64,000 nucleotides of DNA. Origin: Holophagae bacterium (lineage in GTDB: Bacteria; Acidobacteriota; Holophagae; Acanthopleuribacterales; Acanthopleuribacteraceae). The notes below the pieces were generated by a model. It made no database searches and was not told the origin of the DNA. It saw only the letters and a program-made list of their open reading frames with translations. How positions within the stretch are numbered: position 1 is the first letter of the stretch; every line of letters starts with the position of its first letter. The position numbers were made by a program, and so were the translations under genes. Positions 40,064-49,144 of this stretch are shown one piece after another. Location of the stretch: the NCBI GenBank assembly GCA_029263455.1, contig JAJCXM010000008.1, positions 186,001 to 250,000 of the forward strand, given 5' to 3'.

Positions 40064-41044
40064 ATGATTGTTGTTACGGGTGGGGCAGGCTTTATTGGGA
40101 GTTGTATTGCGGCGGAGCTTAATCGCCGTGGTCAGCTTGATCTGGTATTGGTGGACTCGCTTGGAAGCTCGGAAAAGTGGAAGAACTTACGTGGACTCGA
40201 CTATTTGGAGTATCTAGATAAACACAAACTTTTTGGCTTCTTGAAACGCCATACAGACATTAAGGCCGTTGTTCACATGGGCGCATGCAGTTCTACCACT
40301 GAGCTAGATGCCAATTACCTCATGAACAACAACACGCGTTACACAGCACGGCTCGCGAAATGGTGCGTCGACAATCAGGTACGCTTCGTTTATGCCAGCT
40401 CAGCCGCCACTTATGGTGATGGCGGATTGGGGTTCAAGGATGATGAGGATCAATTGGACCAGTTAAAACCCCTGAACATGTATGGCTACTCCAAGCATGC
40501 ATTTGATCTAATCGCCAAGCGGCGAGGCTGGCTTCCACACATGGCGGGCCTCAAATTTTTCAATGTGTTTGGCCCTAACGAGTATCACAAACAGAATATG
40601 GTTTCGGTCGTGTACCAAGCGTTCCACCAAATAAAACATCACGGGGAAGTTCGCCTGTTTAAGTCCTATCGTTCCGACTACGCCGATGGTGAACAGAGAC
40701 GTGATTTCGTTTATGTGAAGGATGTGGTTAAGCAAACGATGCAATTGCTGGAATCCAAGGTAGGCGGGATTTACAACGCAGGATCAGGTACGGCTCATTC
40801 ATTCAACCAACTGGTAACGGCTGTATTTGCGGCGATGGATCAGCCCGTCAAAATTAATTATGTGGATATGCCGGACTCTTTGCGTGACCGCTACCAATAC
40901 TTTACTGAGGCAGACATGCGCAAGGCCCGAGAAGCAGGGTTAGCCAGTCAGCCATATGAACTGAACGACAGCGTTCGCGATTACGTCGTGAATTATTTAA
41001 TGCCGGACGAAAAACATGAAGCCGGTCGGCATGAGCCTTTTTAG
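40064..41044 (+). CDS. hldD: ADP-L-glycero-D-manno-heptose 6-epimerase
   Basis: The 326-residue product has the NADP Rossmann motif VTGGAGFIGSCIAAEL at the start, the catalytic-region segment SSAATYGDGGLGF and YGYSKHAFD (YxxxK) near residue 137. It also has NVFGPNEYHKQNMVSVVYQ, which is characteristic of HldD. ATG 40064 is preferred because GGAGG lies six bases upstream; ATG 40058 touches it directly. The enzyme makes ADP-L-glycero-D-manno-heptose for lipopolysaccharide core, so the cell probably has heptose-containing lipopolysaccharide. It converges and overlaps by four bases with the kinase-like gene. Confidence 0.94.
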   Translation: MIVVTGGAGFIGSCIAAELNRRGQLDLVLVDSLGSSEKWKNLRGLDYLEYLDKHKLFGFLKRHTDIKAVVHMGACSSTTELDANYLMNNNTRYTARLAKWCVDNQVRFVYASSAATYGDGGLGFKDDEDQLDQLKPLNMYGYSKHAFDLIAKRRGWLPHMAGLKFFNVFGPNEYHKQNMVSVVYQAFHQIKHHGEVRLFKSYRSDYADGEQRRDFVYVKDVVKQTMQLLESKVGGIYNAGSGTAHSFNQLVTAVFAAMDQPVKINYVDMPDSLRDRYQYFTEADMRKAREAGLASQPYELNDSVRDYVVNYLMPDEKHEAGRHEPF

Positions 41045-42588
41045 CGCTTTTGTTCCATTCCATCCCATTTAGGGTTGGCAGGTGGTAGTCGGACGTGGAA
41101 TGCGCAGCCGAATCCCGGTTCACTTTCCACCCAAATACGGCCGTCATGGGCGGTAACAAACTTGCGACACAAGTAGAGACCAATTCCCTGTTCGGTGATG
41201 CTTGTGTGACTGGATTGCACCGGTCGTTCGAATATGCTTGTTTCTTGCCCAGGTACTAAGCCTGGTCCCTGGTCGGATACAGAAACTCGAATCCAATCGT
41301 CTTCCTCCGTTTGGATCTTTATGGTGATACAACTACCTTCCGGCGAGAATCGCGCTGCGTTTGTAAGTAGATTTGAAAAGACACGGGCTAGCTTTTGAGG
41401 GTCACCAACTGTTGCTAAATCACTCTGTTCAGTCATCTCAAAGGCGACGCGCAGATTCTTTTCGCTGAAGAGGATGTCTAACTGACGGACCGTTTTGCGC
41501 AGAAAACTGGGTATCGCGATTTTTTCGGGGTGAATGACCAGCATACCGTCGTCAATGCGGCCTAATTCGATGACGTCTTCGAGCATGTCGGTCGCCATTT
41601 TAGCGTTGTGGGCCATGCGCGAGGTGAGTTCCTTTATCGTGGGATCACTGTCGATCATCATCAATAACTCGCTCGTTCCTTGCAGGTTCGCCATGGGCTG
41701 CCGGATCCGTTCAGAGAGGATCGACATGTATTCAGATTTAGATTTTTTTGCTCGTTGCAGCGCCTCATGGGTGCGCGTGTGTTCGAGCATAAATTTGATA
41801 CCGTCTGCAATGGTTGTGTATTGGCCAGCCAGGACTGGATCCATGGATTCATCACCGACTTCAGGTGCGAAAAAGACAAGCAGGCCTTCCCAACCACGTG
41901 ATGTGCTGATGGGGAACATGTATCGTGGGGACTCGGCCGTCTCAAAGACCATGCGTTGCTTTTTGAGGATAGGCTCAATGCGTTGCCATGCTTCATCGCA
42001 TAAATCGTCCAACCATATTTGGTCCATCGCCTCCAAGTTCTTGCCCATTTGCACGATTGGATCATTGACGATGGCGGTGTAGCTAATAAAGGCAATGGCG
42101 CGGACCGTTAGGCGATCCTGTATTTGGTTCAGTGCCACGTCGATCGCTGCCAATGGATCGGAGGAATGGGCCGGTCGCTCCAGAATGTCTGCTTTTAAGC
42201 GAAATGTGGCACCCAGCGCGACGGTCTGCTGCAACAAATCTAATCGTTGCTTGGCGAATTGGATGGGCGTGTCTTCAGGGATACAATCGATCAAACCTAA
42301 CAAACGCAGGTCGCCATCGGTAAGTGTCTGAGGCTGAGAGATGAGCACCAACGGCAGAAAAGGGTCCTGGTTACGCCAATAGGTGATCAGTTCACGGGTG
42401 TCAGATTTGTTCTGTGAATGGTGCAGAACGATGAGTTCGTAAGGCGAACTTACCGCTAATCCAGTAAGGATTAGGTCGTTGGCCTCAATGCCGTTTTGTG
42501 CGCGATCCACATGGTGGCCCTCGCGTTGAAGCAATTGAGCGTATGGGTCAAGTTCATTGACCGGTTCAGAAATAAGCAGCATCTTCAA
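41041..42588 (-). CDS. Hybrid histidine-kinase-like protein lacking phosphorylation residues
   Basis: The 515-residue product has a receiver-like N-terminus (about residues 1-120), a GAF-like middle (about 150-280), a HisKA-like helix pair (about 285-350) and a HATPase domain (about 390-505) with N-box FSNLLTNAARFSPEG, G1 VSDQGPGL and G2 TEQGIGLYL. In the HisKA H-box the segment is SILSERIRQPMANL, where Glu293 stands in place of histidine. In the receiver, YELIVLHHS has His56 in place of the phospho-aspartate. ATP binding seems kept, phosphotransfer lost. It is probably an allosteric or scaffold pseudokinase. Confidence 0.85.
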   Translation of the reverse strand: MKMLLISEPVNELDPYAQLLQREGHHVDRAQNGIEANDLILTGLAVSSPYELIVLHHSQNKSDTRELITYWRNQDPFLPLVLISQPQTLTDGDLRLLGLIDCIPEDTPIQFAKQRLDLLQQTVALGATFRLKADILERPAHSSDPLAAIDVALNQIQDRLTVRAIAFISYTAIVNDPIVQMGKNLEAMDQIWLDDLCDEAWQRIEPILKKQRMVFETAESPRYMFPISTSRGWEGLLVFFAPEVGDESMDPVLAGQYTTIADGIKFMLEHTRTHEALQRAKKSKSEYMSILSERIRQPMANLQGTSELLMMIDSDPTIKELTSRMAHNAKMATDMLEDVIELGRIDDGMLVIHPEKIAIPSFLRKTVRQLDILFSEKNLRVAFEMTEQSDLATVGDPQKLARVFSNLLTNAARFSPEGSCITIKIQTEEDDWIRVSVSDQGPGLVPGQETSIFERPVQSSHTSITEQGIGLYLCRKFVTAHDGRIWVESEPGFGCAFHVRLPPANPKWDGMEQKR

Positions 42589-42755
42589 TGCGGAGACACC
42601 TGGAATCGCGAGAGTTCCTACGAATAGACGTCAATTAAAGCACGAATCACGGTAGCCACCAATGCTGTGCATGTTATGGCCGGGACCGTTAGAATAGAAG
42701 CTGAAACTTTTGATGGGTGATCGCGTCTCCTCTGTGGGCACCCAAGGAGCTGGCG

Positions 42756-43325
42756 TTGTCCTCGACTGAAATCTCCCACAAGCTAGTGCTGGAAGCCATG
42801 TCTGGACAGACCGGGGCACTGAATGCCTTGATAGAACAGGTACAGAGTGATTTGTGGGGCTTCTTGCGCGGGCGGCTACGTCGTACAGAGGACGCCGAAG
42901 ATGTGTATCAGGAAACATGGATGAAGGTCACCAAAGAAATAAGGAATTTACGAGACCCGTCTCGATTTAGGTCGTGGCTATTTGCGATTGCGATCAATGC
43001 TGTTCGCAGTAGTACGCGCCGGCCGCGTGGGCTCAATTTTTCGATCGACGCGACCGATGATGTCGACTCATTTGGCGAGATCCAGTCCCATGATCCATCG
43101 CCTCAACAACAGACCTTGGCTAAAGAACGTTTTGAGAAAGTGACGCGGGCGCTACATACGCTCAGTGACAAACAGCGAGAGACGTTGTTATTAGAAGCGG
43201 TGGGCGATTTACCGCAAAAAGACATCGCCGAGTTGGTTGGCGACAATCTCAACACCGTGAAGACAAATATTCGCCGCGCGCGCATTCGATTAGCTCGAAA
43301 ACTGGTGGAGGTGGGGCTTGACTAA
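42756..43325 (+). CDS. ECF-type RNA polymerase sigma factor
   Basis: The product is 189 residues from TTG 42756, which has AAGGAG six bases upstream; GTG 42717 is possible. Region 2 reads LIEQVQSDLWGFLRGRLRRT then EDAEDVYQETWMKVTKEI, and region 4 reads HTLSDKQRETLLLEAVGDLP then QKDIAELVGDNLNTVKTNI, with the usual helix-turn-helix. It directs transcription of an envelope or stress regulon. The overlapping downstream gene encodes its likely anti-sigma factor. Confidence 0.92.
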   Translation: MSSTEISHKLVLEAMSGQTGALNALIEQVQSDLWGFLRGRLRRTEDAEDVYQETWMKVTKEIRNLRDPSRFRSWLFAIAINAVRSSTRRPRGLNFSIDATDDVDSFGEIQSHDPSPQQQTLAKERFEKVTRALHTLSDKQRETLLLEAVGDLPQKDIAELVGDNLNTVKTNIRRARIRLARKLVEVGLD

Positions 43326-44463
43326 AAAAATGAACCTAGACCGCCTTGAAGAGCTCCTGGAAGAAATGGAGCCAGCAGAAATTCGAGAACAATTCGCTGA
43401 CGAACTTGCTTCAGCCCCTGATTGCCTGAAGCTATTGAGCCATTTTGAGAATATGGACAACAATCTCAGTGAATACGCACAGCATGAAACTCCTCCAAGC
43501 GTTCAACTGAGGGTTCGCCGTTCAGCCTGGTCGGCCATGAAGTGGGCTTTGCCCCTAGCGGCCGTGTTGATGATCTCCTTTTTGCTTTGGGTGCCAAGTG
43601 TGAATAGATCCATTGACGCCGAAATGGAAAGCGCGGCCTCTGATGTGTTGGAAAACGACTCGGTTGCAACTGAACCAACTGAAACGCCCGAAACGGTCAT
43701 GGCCGAGCTGGAGGAGGAAATTTCACCGGTACCTAAACTCCTAGAACGCAAACAAGAATCCAACCTGGCCGCGGAATTGCCAGCCTCCGAGAAAGTGCAA
43801 GAGCCCGAACCGCCACCATTAAGATCCAGGACGAGCTCTGCGACAGAAGACAAACCGACGACAAAAGAAGTATTCGATTATGAGCCTGCGCTGGAAGATA
43901 GTGCCGCTGGCCTCGCAGCCGAAGGGCGAGTTGAAGATCTTAGAGATGCGGCGCGACCTAGCGCCAGTAAACCTAAGAAAGACGTCGCGCAGGCACAAGC
44001 GATCGTTGAACCAGCTAAGATCCAGATGGCCCAAGCGCCGATGCCCGCCGAAGCCGATGCGACATTGGACGAGAGCTATCGCAGTGAGGCACGTAGTTCA
44101 GTTAGTCGTCAACTAAATGACACGGCACCTAGTATCGCTACCTGGTTAGAGCGAGTCTTGGGGCTGATGGTTCAGCGTCAATACGAAGTACTTCGCCAGC
44201 ACTTCGCCCCCCAAAGTCGGATCAGTTGGCCACAAGTGACTCAGCACCAGCAGCTAGGGGGCTTGATTGAGGATTTACAATCAAGTGCGGTAACCCTCAA
44301 CTCATATAGGCTTGTTGAGACGGATGTTGGCGCGGAACTGGAATTGACCTTTACGCGCAATAGCCGTCAACAAACCCTTACCTTTGACGTTTATGTGACT
44401 TTTAATGCTCAAGGTCAGTGTGCCAGCCTGTCGGCTAAGGCTCAGGCCGTGGTTGAGCGTTGA
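43318..44463 (+). CDS. Putative membrane anti-sigma factor with long disordered linker
   Basis: The 381-residue product starts at TTG 43318, five bases after GGAGGT, overlapping the sigma gene by eight bases. Residues about 1-60 are acidic and helical, fitting a cytoplasmic anti-sigma domain, although no zinc HxxxCxxC motif is visible. One membrane helix follows (MKWALPLAAVLMISFLLWVP, near residue 75). Then come about 170 residues rich in Glu, Pro and Ala, and a folded C-terminal domain (WLERVLGLMVQRQYEVLRQH ...). The role is inferred from coupling. Its end overlaps the MFS gene by 29 bases, convergently. Confidence 0.72.
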   Translation: MTKKMNLDRLEELLEEMEPAEIREQFADELASAPDCLKLLSHFENMDNNLSEYAQHETPPSVQLRVRRSAWSAMKWALPLAAVLMISFLLWVPSVNRSIDAEMESAASDVLENDSVATEPTETPETVMAELEEEISPVPKLLERKQESNLAAELPASEKVQEPEPPPLRSRTSSATEDKPTTKEVFDYEPALEDSAAGLAAEGRVEDLRDAARPSASKPKKDVAQAQAIVEPAKIQMAQAPMPAEADATLDESYRSEARSSVSRQLNDTAPSIATWLERVLGLMVQRQYEVLRQHFAPQSRISWPQVTQHQQLGGLIEDLQSSAVTLNSYRLVETDVGAELELTFTRNSRQQTLTFDVYVTFNAQGQCASLSAKAQAVVER

Positions 44464-45706
44464 GTGAGCGGTACCAATAGGCGAACATCAGTCCGGAAAA
44501 GAACAGAATACAACCAAGGATGAGTGGCAAGCTTGTCAGTGCCAAACCGCGATCATGTAGACCCCCGATAACCCAAGTTGAGAGAGAAATAAGCAAGGTG
44601 GCCATGCCGATTTCACTGGCAAAGACGCGCCCGCGAAATTCGTTATCAACGTTCCACTGCAATAGGACGGTCGAAAAAACCCAAATGGTACTTCCGCCCA
44701 TGTGAGCGATAAAAACGAAGGCGAACGCCAAGTAGACATGGGAGACTTGGGCAAAGGCAATATAGGCTGCCGCCGACGCAAAAAACGAGATGATGATGGC
44801 CAGGGTCATCTTTCGAGGATCTTCGCCGCAAATACGGCGGGCGACAAGCGGACCTGCGGCTGTGCCCAATGCTCTGCATACGAATAGGGACGCCATGCCC
44901 AAATCAGGTCGTCCTCCAAAATGGTAAATATGGGTGCCGTACAAGGTTAGTACCAACTGGATTGCGCCTGCCAAACACCAGCCCGACTTGATGAGCGCAC
45001 AAAAGAGTATCTGTCGGCGCTGTCTCATGTAAACAAAGCCAGCCAGCATGTCTTTGAAACCGAGCAGCTCGAGCCATGTCCTTGAAACGACTCGTTTTAT
45101 CTGCGCTGGCAGGTCAATTCGCGCGACGATAAAGGCGGAAACGGCAAAAGTGGATGCGTCCAATGCAAGCGTAATTTGCCACCCCAACCACTGATTGACA
45201 AGGCCTCCGAGACCAGCACCTAACGCGTATATGGCGCTCCATGTCATAGCGCCCAACGCGTTGGCCCGTACGATTGCGTGGCTGGGAAGGATGCTGGGCA
45301 ACATGGCGGTCCGAGCGGGTTCAAAGAAAGCGGAGGCACTCGCATGCAGAATCGTGAGGCCATAAATGGCCCACAGGTGTCCATGCTCAAGTAAAGGAAT
45401 GGCTAGGTAACAAAGCGTTAAGAAAAAGCGAGTGAGGTCGCTATAAACCATGACTCTTACGCGAGAGAATCGATCTGCAATTACGCCAGCTATTGGGCCC
45501 ATAAAAAAGGTCGGTAGCAGTTTGACGATAAAAAGTGCGCCGACAATCTGGCCCGAGTTCTCTGTCGTCTCACGTAGCAGCGTTAAGAGGGCGAGCAGGT
45601 TGAACCAATCACCTAACAACGAAATCGAACGGGCAGCATACAGGCGTCTGTAGTTGGGGAATTCGAACAGCAAACGCAGGTAACTGTCGTGACTGGCTGG
45701 GCGCAT
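44435..45706 (-). CDS. MFS transporter (EntS/MFS_3-like)
   Basis: The 423-residue product has about ten to twelve membrane helices. The N-terminal NYRRLYAARSISLLGDWFNL, the motif A-like FMGPIAGVIADRFSRVRVMV and ASAFFEPARTAMLPSILPSH are typical of the MFS_3 family of drug and siderophore exporters. AAGGAA precedes the ATG. Substrate unknown. It ends inside the convergent anti-sigma gene, so antisense effects between the two are possible. Confidence 0.87.
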   Translation of the reverse strand: MRPASHDSYLRLLFEFPNYRRLYAARSISLLGDWFNLLALLTLLRETTENSGQIVGALFIVKLLPTFFMGPIAGVIADRFSRVRVMVYSDLTRFFLTLCYLAIPLLEHGHLWAIYGLTILHASASAFFEPARTAMLPSILPSHAIVRANALGAMTWSAIYALGAGLGGLVNQWLGWQITLALDASTFAVSAFIVARIDLPAQIKRVVSRTWLELLGFKDMLAGFVYMRQRRQILFCALIKSGWCLAGAIQLVLTLYGTHIYHFGGRPDLGMASLFVCRALGTAAGPLVARRICGEDPRKMTLAIIISFFASAAAYIAFAQVSHVYLAFAFVFIAHMGGSTIWVFSTVLLQWNVDNEFRGRVFASEIGMATLLISLSTWVIGGLHDRGLALTSLPLILGCILFFSGLMFAYWYRSLNAQPRPEP

Positions 45707-45807
45707 TTAGAAAATTCCTTACCTAGTTATGGGTGAATTGGATATGAAATGTTAGTATGATTGTGCACCTGACGCGACCATTGTGGCTTTGTCGAGGGCT
45801 AGGTCGT

Positions 45808-45824
45808 GTTAAAATACCTTTAAC
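45808..45824. promoter_or_regulatory. Inverted repeat in the divergent promoter region
   Basis: GTTAAA, five bases, TTTAAC: a perfect inverted repeat about 55 bases before the gene at 45878 and 100 bases before the divergent MFS gene. TAAAAT within it could act as a -10 element, so the repeat may be an operator. This is a pattern call only. Confidence 0.35.
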
Positions 45825-45877
45825 AGTAGGTGTTTAGAAAACAAATAGATTTGTAATTGGTGCTTGAGGGAGGCGAA

Positions 45878-46387
45878 GTGGTTAGAGCGTTGCTCGTCAC
45901 GTTATTGGTTCATTCTGCTGGTTGGGCCCAAGGGCAGTTGCAGGCTAAGGTTGAAGCGATCCAAGGATTAATGCCTGCTGCGACTTCATGCGTTATTCTC
46001 TGGAGCCCGCAATCTAGTCCCGAACTACAAGATGAATTTGGTCTTGCTTCGTCCGAAACGGGACTTCGAATAATTCAAACTCCTATTAACAGTCTTCGAG
46101 AGATGTCCGGTGTGCTCAAAGCGTTATCGCCATACTCACCTGACTTCATCTTAATGCTCAGTGACCGCATGGTTACCGGCAAGAACGCGGTCAAATTTGT
46201 TGTTAGAGCCTATCATCGTCAGTCGATACCCGTCTTCGTTGAGAGTGATGATGCTATTTCGGGTGGCGCATATGGCGCTTTGGTCTTAAGTGGCAGCCAA
46301 TGGAAGATCAAAATAAACGGCGAGGTAAGGGCCGATTTCCCCATTACGCCGCCTGAAGGCGATGATCGCTACACCGTAAGTAATTAA
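45878..46387 (+). CDS. Secreted ABC substrate-binding-like protein (PF04392-like)
   Basis: The 169-residue product is taken from GTG 45878, which follows GGGAGG; it begins with a signal peptide (VRALLVTLLVHSAGWAQGQ). The remainder follows the ABC_sub_bind pattern: CVILWSPQSSPELQDEF, GLRIIQTPINSLREMSGVL, PDFILMLSDRMVTGKNAVKF and QSIPVFVESDDAISGGAYGA. At this length it is about half of a normal two-lobe binding protein. No ABC permease lies nearby. It could be a sensor or regulator rather than a transporter part. Confidence 0.65.
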   Translation: MVRALLVTLLVHSAGWAQGQLQAKVEAIQGLMPAATSCVILWSPQSSPELQDEFGLASSETGLRIIQTPINSLREMSGVLKALSPYSPDFILMLSDRMVTGKNAVKFVVRAYHRQSIPVFVESDDAISGGAYGALVLSGSQWKIKINGEVRADFPITPPEGDDRYTVSN

Positions 46388-46393
46388 TCGCGC

Positions 46394-47092
46394 TTAGGAT
46401 TTAGCAGAAGCAATTCTTTCGCGCACGTCAGCCATTAACTTACTGCGTGTGGATTCACTGTATTGACTGGCTTCGACTCGAGGGTGAATGACCACGTGTA
46501 AGGTGCCCGGTTTCGCCATCAGCGAGTTGCGCGGGCAAAGCTGTTGGGAATTGACCAAGGTAATGGGGACGATATCGAGCTTGTTGGCTAGGGCAAGCCG
46601 GAACCCGCCCTTCTTGAATGGCAAAATACCCGATTTCGCACGTGTTCCTTCGGGAAAGACCAAGACGGGCAGTCCAGATTTCACCCGCTGACCAGCTTTA
46701 CGCAAACTCACCATCGCGCGACTACGGTTTGCTCGGTCGATTGGCACCATGCCCATCGCCCAGATAGCCCAGCCTACAAAAGGGACCCAACCCAGTGACC
46801 GCTTGTATACGAAGCGAAGGTCCACGGGTAGAGCGGCGATTAGGACCGGGATATCGATCGTACTTTCGTGATTGGACATATAAATACAAGGCCTGGCCGG
46901 GTCAACGTGTTCGATACCTTCAATGGCCAGTCGTATGCCACATATCCTAAGCAGCGTCTTGCCCCATGCCTGCATAAAATAGGTGGGTAATTTGATACGT
47001 GAAATGGGAATGGCGCATAAGCACAGAACGGCACCAATGACGATGGATATGACAAAGGCGATGCCGTTAAAACTGCGTCTTAGCCATCCCAT
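46394..47092 (-). CDS. plsC: 1-acyl-sn-glycerol-3-phosphate acyltransferase-like protein
   Basis: The 232-residue product has an N-terminal membrane helix and the acyltransferase motifs NHESTIDIP (NHx4D, near residue 72), VPIDRANRSRAM, VFPEGTRAKSG (FPEGTR) and VPITLVNS. All four blocks are kept. It acylates lysophosphatidic acid or a related acceptor. The start overlaps the ketosynthase stop as TGATG, which suggests a joint lipid pathway with that gene. Confidence 0.9.
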   Translation of the reverse strand: MGWLRRSFNGIAFVISIVIGAVLCLCAIPISRIKLPTYFMQAWGKTLLRICGIRLAIEGIEHVDPARPCIYMSNHESTIDIPVLIAALPVDLRFVYKRSLGWVPFVGWAIWAMGMVPIDRANRSRAMVSLRKAGQRVKSGLPVLVFPEGTRAKSGILPFKKGGFRLALANKLDIVPITLVNSQQLCPRNSLMAKPGTLHVVIHPRVEASQYSESTRSKLMADVRERIASAKS

Positions 47093-48690
47093 CACCAGCG
47101 CTTACATATGACACAAGAGTTAATGCCGCCTACGCCCATATTGATCTTGCCTGAATATTCGCCTTCGATCTGGCGTTCTTCAGTGACGATCACATCCTCA
47201 AATGGCTTAATTTGGGGGTGAAGTTCGTGGTGTTCAACATGTACCGGCAACAAAACGCCACGACTGAAGCCTAAGTGTTGTGCCGTCAATTCCCAGCCGC
47301 CACATACAGACATTCCGTGTCCAAAGGAGCCCTTGCGAGCTGTTAAGGCGGTGCCATGCGGAAAAAACGAGAGGACGTTTTGCAGTTCTGTCCAGTCACC
47401 TGGCGTTGCGGTTGCATGCATGTCCCAGGTGGCTATTTGCTCTGGGGCTAGGCCTGCTTGTTCAAGTGCTTGCTGGATGGCCGCACGAGGGCCCTCGTCT
47501 GAAGGAGTGATGATGTGGTCGGCGTCGGCTGTCAAAGCGACACTGACGATTTCAAGCCCCAAGGGCTTCATCCCCAGGCCGGTGAAGTAGTCGTAATCTC
47601 CGACGATCCAAATACATGAGCCACCTGCCACGTGCGTGCCTCGTAACCCTGTGAAGGGCTTGCTGACGTCGCCATCTTGGGAAACGACACGGGCGCCGTA
47701 GAACGCGCCCACAGACAATGGATGAGGCGGCGGGTCGGTCATTCCGATGATGGCCGCTTTGGCTTGGCCAAGCTGTATCGCGTTGTCGGCTAGCTTAAGG
47801 GCTGTCCCAAATCCACTACAGGCGGCCACCGGAGCCATGGTTGGCCCAGTGATCTTACCTAACATGGAGATTTGAGCAGCAGGGATGTTGGCAATATTCC
47901 ATAGTAACTTCGGATCAACTGAATTCCATGGTTCGGTTGGACAGCCGTACTTGCTGTTGAGCTTTTTTCGTGCTGCCAGCTTGCGTCTTATCAAGTGACC
48001 CTTTGTGCTGTCGATATCGCCTTCAAGGGACAGGCTTTCAAATTCGCGCATCTCATTTAGATAAGCCTTCAGCTGATCTGAATGAGGTAGCCAAAACTCG
48101 TGCCACGCAATGCGAGCCATATCGCGTTCGTCCGAATCAGAGGGATGGTTTTCCGGGTCTTCCGGCGCCTCATATTCAAGGCGCATCTTTTCTTTGGCGA
48201 CCGAATCGCTAGAAGCGTATTCCTGCAGAATCCGGTGGCGGCTAGGCTGACACCAAAAACGGTTCCAGCGACGTTGTGCACGATCGTAATCGACAGAAAC
48301 TGTATGTTGAGCTTGGTAATCGCCTAACCCGGTCCCCACGTAAATGTGCGTTTGGTGACCTAACTGTTGCAGCGCTTTTTCGAGGCCTTCGTTTTGACCG
48401 AGTGCCTGTACAAAAGCCCCGATCGCATATTTCACCATTTGCCCCATCTTGGCATCGATTTGAGCAAACTTCCTCGGTTCAAACCGCTCGTCAACCCAAG
48501 CCTTGTACGCATCAAAGTCGAATTCGGGTTTACCAGTCATAAAGAGATTAGGACCGAATCCGTCTTCGAATGATGAGAGCCACGTGTTTGCGTTGCTTAA
48601 GTTTGATTCAAACTGATCGATGTCTGGGGATTTCGGTGCCACGATGCCCCATCCAAATATACCGATTCTCTTCCGTTTGACATGTTTCAA
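47092..48690 (-). CDS. Beta-ketoacyl synthase-like protein
   Basis: The 532-residue product begins at TTG 48690 (GAGGGG upstream) with IGIFGWGIVAPKSPDIDQFE. The thiolase-fold active site is APVAACSGFGTALKLADNAI (Cys near residue 290), with HATATPGDW and KGSFGHGMSVCGGWELTAQH carrying the two histidines. The Cys-His-His triad is complete. The insert around residues 130-230 makes it longer than FabF (about 410). It probably condenses acyl chains in a dedicated lipid or polyketide-like pathway together with the coupled acyltransferase. No acyl carrier protein gene is in the window. Confidence 0.85.
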   Translation of the reverse strand: MKHVKRKRIGIFGWGIVAPKSPDIDQFESNLSNANTWLSSFEDGFGPNLFMTGKPEFDFDAYKAWVDERFEPRKFAQIDAKMGQMVKYAIGAFVQALGQNEGLEKALQQLGHQTHIYVGTGLGDYQAQHTVSVDYDRAQRRWNRFWCQPSRHRILQEYASSDSVAKEKMRLEYEAPEDPENHPSDSDERDMARIAWHEFWLPHSDQLKAYLNEMREFESLSLEGDIDSTKGHLIRRKLAARKKLNSKYGCPTEPWNSVDPKLLWNIANIPAAQISMLGKITGPTMAPVAACSGFGTALKLADNAIQLGQAKAAIIGMTDPPPHPLSVGAFYGARVVSQDGDVSKPFTGLRGTHVAGGSCIWIVGDYDYFTGLGMKPLGLEIVSVALTADADHIITPSDEGPRAAIQQALEQAGLAPEQIATWDMHATATPGDWTELQNVLSFFPHGTALTARKGSFGHGMSVCGGWELTAQHLGFSRGVLLPVHVEHHELHPQIKPFEDVIVTEERQIEGEYSGKINMGVGGINSCVICKRW

Positions 48691-48769
48691 TGTTTTGTTA
48701 CCCCTCGCCCAATCCCATGTTCCATTGTAGGCAACTCGGCTTCGGGAATCAATTTTGGGTATACCAAAA

Positions 48770-49144
48770 TCACCCGCTTGTCGTTGAATTGCTTTGTTCG
48801 TCCAGCAAAAAGTCTAAGCTGTGTCGTGCGTGGCGTAAATGAGGTATCACAATGGAACCCCCAACCACGAGTGCCACATTGAGGGCGTCTTCGATTTCAT
48901 CATTTCCGTAGCCGACGTTGACACATTGTTCAAGGTGGTAGTCGATACAGTCGTTGCATCTGAGTACGGCTGATGCGACTAAACCTAATAGCTCCTTGGT
49001 CTTGCCTGATAAAGCACCGTCTCGGTAACATTGGGAATCGAGTGAAAAGAATCGCTTGATGCCTAAATGATCGGTCTCCAAAACACGAGATTGTTCTTTG
49101 GAACGTCTTTCCCTAAAGGCCTCAAATGGATGCTGACCAGTCAT
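48770..49144 (-). CDS. Carboxymuconolactone decarboxylase / AhpD-like protein
   Basis: The 124-residue helical product has LVASAVLRCNDCIDYHLEQC, which is the CxxC-x3-H signature of AhpD-like peroxidase-reductase proteins. The start overlaps the AIM24 gene stop as TGATG. AhpD-type proteins reduce thiol partners in oxidative stress, whereas true carboxymuconolactone decarboxylases lack the CxxC, so a thiol role is more likely. Confidence 0.88.
   Translation of the reverse strand: MTGQHPFEAFRERRSKEQSRVLETDHLGIKRFFSLDSQCYRDGALSGKTKELLGLVASAVLRCNDCIDYHLEQCVNVGYGNDEIEDALNVALVVGGSIVIPHLRHARHSLDFLLDEQSNSTTSG

Follow-up and report, generated by a model that had tools for sequence, protein, structure and literature searches.

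The gene at positions 41041 to 42588 of the window, the whole 64,000-nucleotide stretch that was analyzed, encodes what sequence comparison identifies as a genuine pseudo-histidine kinase that is under selection and carries a pseudo-receiver. Pseudo-histidine kinases were already known, as were pseudo-receivers, and here both are found in a single protein. By the same comparison, the predicted protein has persisted without a phospho-histidine, without a phospho-aspartate, and, in one lineage, without recognizable ATP boxes, and its conserved core is the pseudo-receiver and not the ATPase. Because the dead receiver is the best-preserved part, the protein probably signals by shape change and partner binding and not by phosphate transfer. 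We put about even confidence in a specific form of that reading, in which a dimeric, cytoplasmic pseudo-histidine kinase would bind a ligand or partner at the receiver face and act by contact through its DHp domain.

The gene lies on the minus strand, begins with TTG, and encodes 515 amino acids arranged as a pseudo-receiver, a GAF-like region, a HisKA-like DHp domain, and an HATPase_c domain. The TTG start stands at the equivalent place in both orthologues. Pfam matches above cutoff were obtained for HisKA (PF00512; residues 284 to 348; 4.6e-9, 36.6 bits) and HATPase_c (PF02518; residues 395 to 504; 7.6e-27, 94.4 bits). The DHp domain (residues 287 to 348; 41545 to 41730, minus strand) is also supported by Foldseek and VIA-align comparison with HK853, DivL, and RetS, and the catalytic CA domain spans residues 355 to 504 (41077 to 41526, minus strand). 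Between receiver and DHp lie a central alpha/beta region and linker helix (residues 131 to 286; 41731 to 42198, minus strand) with a GAF-like pattern. Pfam found no match for residues 131 to 286, and an hhalign profile comparison with the GAF domain of a paralogue was not significant, leaving the GAF assignment unconfirmed. A first full-length AF2 model, built from three orthologues alone, was weak (pLDDT 52.9) and of low confidence over the central region. A Pfam search found no PAS domain in the protein, which has a receiver fold at its N terminus instead.

Orthologues are few. Three were found among the searched genomes: that of the window, one from a same-genus MAG (74% identity), and one from a second genus within the family (30%). 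The source genome (6.25 Mb, 40 contigs) has the Acidobacteria MAG JAGQSC010000021.1 as its closest named relative. The family sample comprised seven genomes in five genera, and the gene was absent from the other four. Samples of the class (93 genomes) and the phylum (396 genomes) contained no further orthologue, the GTDB contig collection gave one match, which was the same-genus MAG, and viral contigs gave none; all other matches in these searches were generic receivers. Because only three orthologues are known, all estimates of conservation given here are coarse.

The N-terminal domain (residues 1 to 129; 42202 to 42588, minus strand) is assigned as a pseudo-receiver by its AF2 model, PDB matches, and within-genus identity. 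Pfam gave no PF00072 match, as the domain is too diverged, but in alignments with canonical receivers His56 falls in the phospho-aspartate column. The AF2 model of the domain has a mean pLDDT of 83.5 and (beta-alpha)5 order in which beta3 ends at His56, although its input was eight receiver sequences, five of them canonical, which favors a receiver fold. The order of fold elements is also (beta-alpha)5 in the weaker full-length model from the three orthologues alone. The best PDB match of the receiver model is the PhoP receiver (TM 0.80 to 0.81), and response-regulator receivers lead the matches. The model and its PDB matches point to a receiver fold.

The receiver active site has been rewritten. 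Its five positions read S7/A7, E8/D8, H56, S84/C84, and E105 across the three orthologues. Residue 7 is Ser, Ser, and Ala, such that the first acidic residue is lost, and Glu8 (42565 to 42567, minus strand; Asp in the second genus) is all that remains of the acidic pair. His56 and His57 (42418 to 42423, minus strand) are invariant in all three orthologues, as are Glu105 and Asp106 (42271 to 42276, minus strand), which stand where receivers conserve Lys-Pro. In every orthologue, His-Glu has taken the place of the Asp-Lys pair, and the order of charges is reversed. We infer that the His56-Glu105 swap could either lock the receiver fold without phosphate or form a metal site.

Positions 8, 56, and 105/106 meet in the active site of canonical receivers, and in all three orthologues they are His or acidic. 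Thus, the pocket of Glu8/Asp8, His56, and Glu105/Asp106 might be a new metal or cofactor site, making the protein a sensor of a metal, redox state, or ligand whose kinase half relays the signal, and the invariance of His56-His57, whereas the H-box residue drifts, is in keeping with such a role. A plain His-Glu hydrogen bond or salt bridge that locks the fold, however, would explain the conservation equally well. We consider a metal or cofactor site unlikely, if the best of the alternatives. Equally unlikely, in our estimate, is the broader proposal that His56-Glu105, with Glu8/Asp8, His57, and Asp106 nearby, is a new metal or ligand switch driving a dead kinase dimer and is part of a wider tendency of the family to keep phosphorylation-dead kinases.

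The kinase half has lost its phosphosite at the H-box. HMMER aligned SERIRQP with SHELRTP of HK853, which puts Glu293 (41710 to 41712, minus strand) at the phospho-histidine, as the original prediction had claimed, and Arg294 at the acidic Glu position that follows it. The H-box residue is Glu, Glu, and Asn across the three orthologues, the adjacent residue, acidic in canonical kinases, is Arg (Thr in the second genus), and no alternative DHp histidine is conserved among the three. Thus, the phospho-histidine is absent from the protein and from both orthologues, the defining feature of a pseudo-histidine kinase. The original prediction also placed His56 at the phospho-aspartate, which alignment to canonical receivers bore out, and proposed checking whether both substitutions are conserved; His56 is invariant in 3/3 orthologues, but Glu293 is not. 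Orthologues with a normal His and Asp would have spoken against the prediction, and none was found in the family, class, phylum, GTDB contigs, or viral contigs. Because Glu, Glu, or Asn stands for His, His for Asp, and Glu for the receiver Lys, ordinary His-Asp phosphotransfer is not expected.

HisKA phosphatases use Thr or Asn at H+4, the position occupied in DHp helix 1 by Gln297 (Thr in the second genus). Accordingly, the protein might control some response regulator, either purely as a phosphatase or as a phospho-sink, and the conserved His is dispensable for HisKA phosphatase activity (PMC12632262). The acidic residue beside the His, however, has been replaced by Arg or Thr, conservation is lower on the DHp surface than in the receiver, and phosphatase activity has been argued not to be a general role of pseudo-histidine kinases (PMC12632262). 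We regard this role as rather improbable.

The ATP-binding domain is only partly preserved. The N box (N406 to N410, NLLTNA; 41359 to 41373, minus strand) is intact but has lost its second Asn in the second genus, the G1 box (DQGPG, D439 to G443; 41260 to 41274, minus strand) is intact but reads TGTLT there, and the G2 box (TEQGIGL, residues 465 to 471; 41176 to 41196, minus strand) is partly atypical and reads DENRVSL there. The three boxes had been described as intact, which holds for N and G1 in the window genus, but G2 (TEQGIGLY) is without the usual Gly-Thr ahead of GxG and has Tyr where Ala is usual. Moreover, the second-genus HATPase domain scores 25.3 bits, below the Pfam cutoff of 26.4. 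The idea that a kept ATPase fold is the functional core is not supported, as the second genus has eroded N, G1, and G2 boxes and, within the window genus, CA is conserved less than any other main domain. ATP binding may tune shape in the window genus but lies outside the conserved core.

Because the CA domain keeps the N and G1 boxes in the window genus, ATP-dependent activity is possible there. The protein might be an ATP-using enzyme whose GHKL domain transfers phosphate to a second protein, for instance to a Ser, like RsbW/SpoIIAB or the pyruvate dehydrogenase kinases, perhaps in a neighboring sigma pathway. Pyruvate dehydrogenase kinase structures do occur in the fold-search list, but any HATPase_c would give a GHKL fold match. 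A divergent ECF sigma factor gene (42717 to 43325, plus strand; Pfam Sigma70_r2/r4_2 and synteny) does adjoin the pseudokinase gene in both species of the genus, but no sigma neighbor is present in the second genus. Moreover, an RsbW-like GHKL serine kinase should have N, G1, and G2 boxes conserved across orthologues, and the second genus has eroded boxes yet retains the receiver motifs. We judge an ATP-using enzyme about as improbable as a phosphatase.

Selection has acted most strongly on the receiver. Within the genus, identity is highest in the receiver (87.5% over residues 1 to 120), followed by HisKA (80%), the central region (71%), and CA (65%). Synonymous sites are saturated between the two same-genus species and dN is far below dS, indicating purifying selection. 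Because both phosphosites are absent in three orthologues and the gene is under purifying selection, the original claim of a selected pseudokinase without His-Asp phosphotransfer stands. Receiver residues 26 to 80, which span alpha2-beta3-alpha3, are identical within the genus at 54 of 55 positions (98.2%). That segment was chosen post hoc, but the control used the highest value from any window in any of the syntenic proteins; of the 15 syntenic pairs, counting the pseudokinase, ClpB alone contains a 55-residue window as highly conserved, and AsnRS reaches 96%. The comparison is with neighboring proteins and not with canonical receivers. The stepwise loss of catalytic sites and the disappearance of ATP boxes in one lineage might suggest the decaying remnant of a two-component gene, but the open frame with a shared start in three species, dN far under saturated dS, and the near identity over residues 26 to 80 make this highly improbable, and the substitution pattern largely rules out a pseudogene.

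Conservation of the receiver is carried by alpha2, beta3, the beta3-alpha3 loop, and alpha3. Helix alpha1, through which canonical receivers dock to kinases, shows 38% identity within the genus and 0% three-way; alpha2 is 100% identical within the genus and 69% three-way. In reported pseudo-receivers, ligands or partners tend to bind at alpha2, the beta3-alpha3 loop, and alpha3 (PMC12632262).

How the protein might signal by shape change and partner binding can be proposed in steps. The swap of the receiver Asp-Lys pair for His56-Glu105 would fix the receiver without phosphate, and the conserved alpha2 and beta3-alpha3 face, with His56-His57, would bind a ligand or a partner protein. Binding at that face would in turn alter the long linker helix and the DHp dimer. 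Output would then occur by contact, most likely with the DHp domain either binding a response regulator or docking to, or heterodimerizing with, an active kinase. None of the three genomes encodes a partner adjacent to the pseudokinase gene, and this output step is therefore proposed by analogy with DivL, RetS, and the ChrS pseudokinase.

The pseudokinase gene stands alone, convergent with a sugar epimerase gene that it overlaps by 4 bases. Downstream of the ECF sigma gene is a gene for a membrane protein that has no Pfam match and is a likely family-specific anti-sigma factor. At the loci of ECF sigma orthologues in other genera, no matching kinase gene is adjacent. We note that the membrane protein, encoded with the sigma factor at window 42717 to 44463 (and L114 to L117), evolves fast (27% identity within the genus) and that a LDRLEELLEEMEPAEIR-like N-terminal motif is kept in the membrane proteins that adjoin the sigma orthologues in four other genomes of the family. 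We also note that the block from the pseudokinase gene to a ketosynthase-like gene (47092 to 48690) is inverted relative to the same-genus genome (window 40902 to 48813 compared with L016). In the second genus, a phosphonate-binding-type (PF12974) periplasmic protein is encoded co-directionally, 176 bases upstream of the pseudokinase gene (L015:8813-9634, genome G003), and it is a possible input partner of the second-genus pseudokinase.

The protein is not the only histidine-less kinase in its genome. The phospho-histidine is present in 41/44 HisKA domains of the source genome and missing from 3/44: Glu in the 41041-42588 protein, Gln in an MglA-like GTPase-GAF-HisKA-HATPase_c protein, and Glu in a triple-PAS-HisKA-HATPase protein. 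A published survey puts pseudo-histidine kinases at 0.9% of HisKA domains (722/76,471) and pseudo-receivers at 2.0% of receivers (PMC12632262). Against that HisKA rate, 3/44 has a binomial probability of 0.008, which becomes 0.06 (2/43) without the protein that prompted the count. The triple-PAS protein (G000:C12:49127-51409, L067:628-2913; orthologues L070 to L074) lacks the His in each of the six family genomes with the gene (E, D, R, K, G, and K, on our reading of the column), and its ATP boxes are kept although the H-box residue varies. The MglA-like protein (G000:C32:236632-238851, L068:2133-4355) has Gln at the phospho-histidine position (SLITQELRNP). Its full-length form was found in three genomes, the same three that have the 41041-42588 orthologues, with Gln and Gln at the H-box, whereas in the second genus (L077) its kinase half is eroded. 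Because the AsnRS tree leaves the clade of the three genomes unsettled, we treat that co-occurrence only as a lead toward a functional link. Given these further His-less kinases, and the absence of the His from every copy of the triple-PAS protein, keeping phosphorylation-dead kinases appears to be a habit of the family Acanthopleuribacteraceae.

Known systems resemble the protein in part. DivL of Caulobacter, among its best structural matches (4q20, Z 17.6), likewise keeps the HisKA and HATPase fold with the phospho-histidine replaced (Tyr550), and it functions without kinase activity (PMC4211667). DivL, however, has PAS domains and no N-terminal receiver and reads DivK~P via its DHp, whereas here the receiver is also dead and ATP boxes are lost in one lineage. 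The DivL family is marked by PAS domains and an H-box Tyr, and the protein described here has no PAS match and has Glu or Asn at the H-box. LvrB of Leptospira (Rec-DHp-CA), which appears among the fold-search matches, also joins an N-terminal receiver by a helix to DHp-CA and uses the receiver as kinase input (PMC13269768). LvrB, however, needs receiver phosphorylation and H161 autophosphorylation; the protein described here has neither a phosphorylatable Asp nor the His, and a central alpha/beta region is inserted. In ShkA and CikA, a receiver without a phospho-aspartate regulates the kinase half by binding a ligand or protein (PMC12632262, PMC7010744), but their kinase half is active, whereas here it is also dead. 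RetS of Pseudomonas, whose kinase region is a top structural match (6dk7, Z 17.7; solved structures 6dk7 and 7n0e), and the ChrS pseudokinase of Corynebacterium, which heterodimerizes with HrrS (PMC9491836), act on another kinase by kinase-kinase contact, but they have other input domains, and the ChrS variant arose as a frameshift in laboratory evolution. The switching of bacterial pseudo-receivers has been described as a mystery (PMC12632262), and none of the papers searched used both "pseudo-receiver" and "pseudokinase." A protein in which both halves are dead and the dead receiver is most conserved makes a clean case in which to ask what a two-component scaffold does without phosphate.
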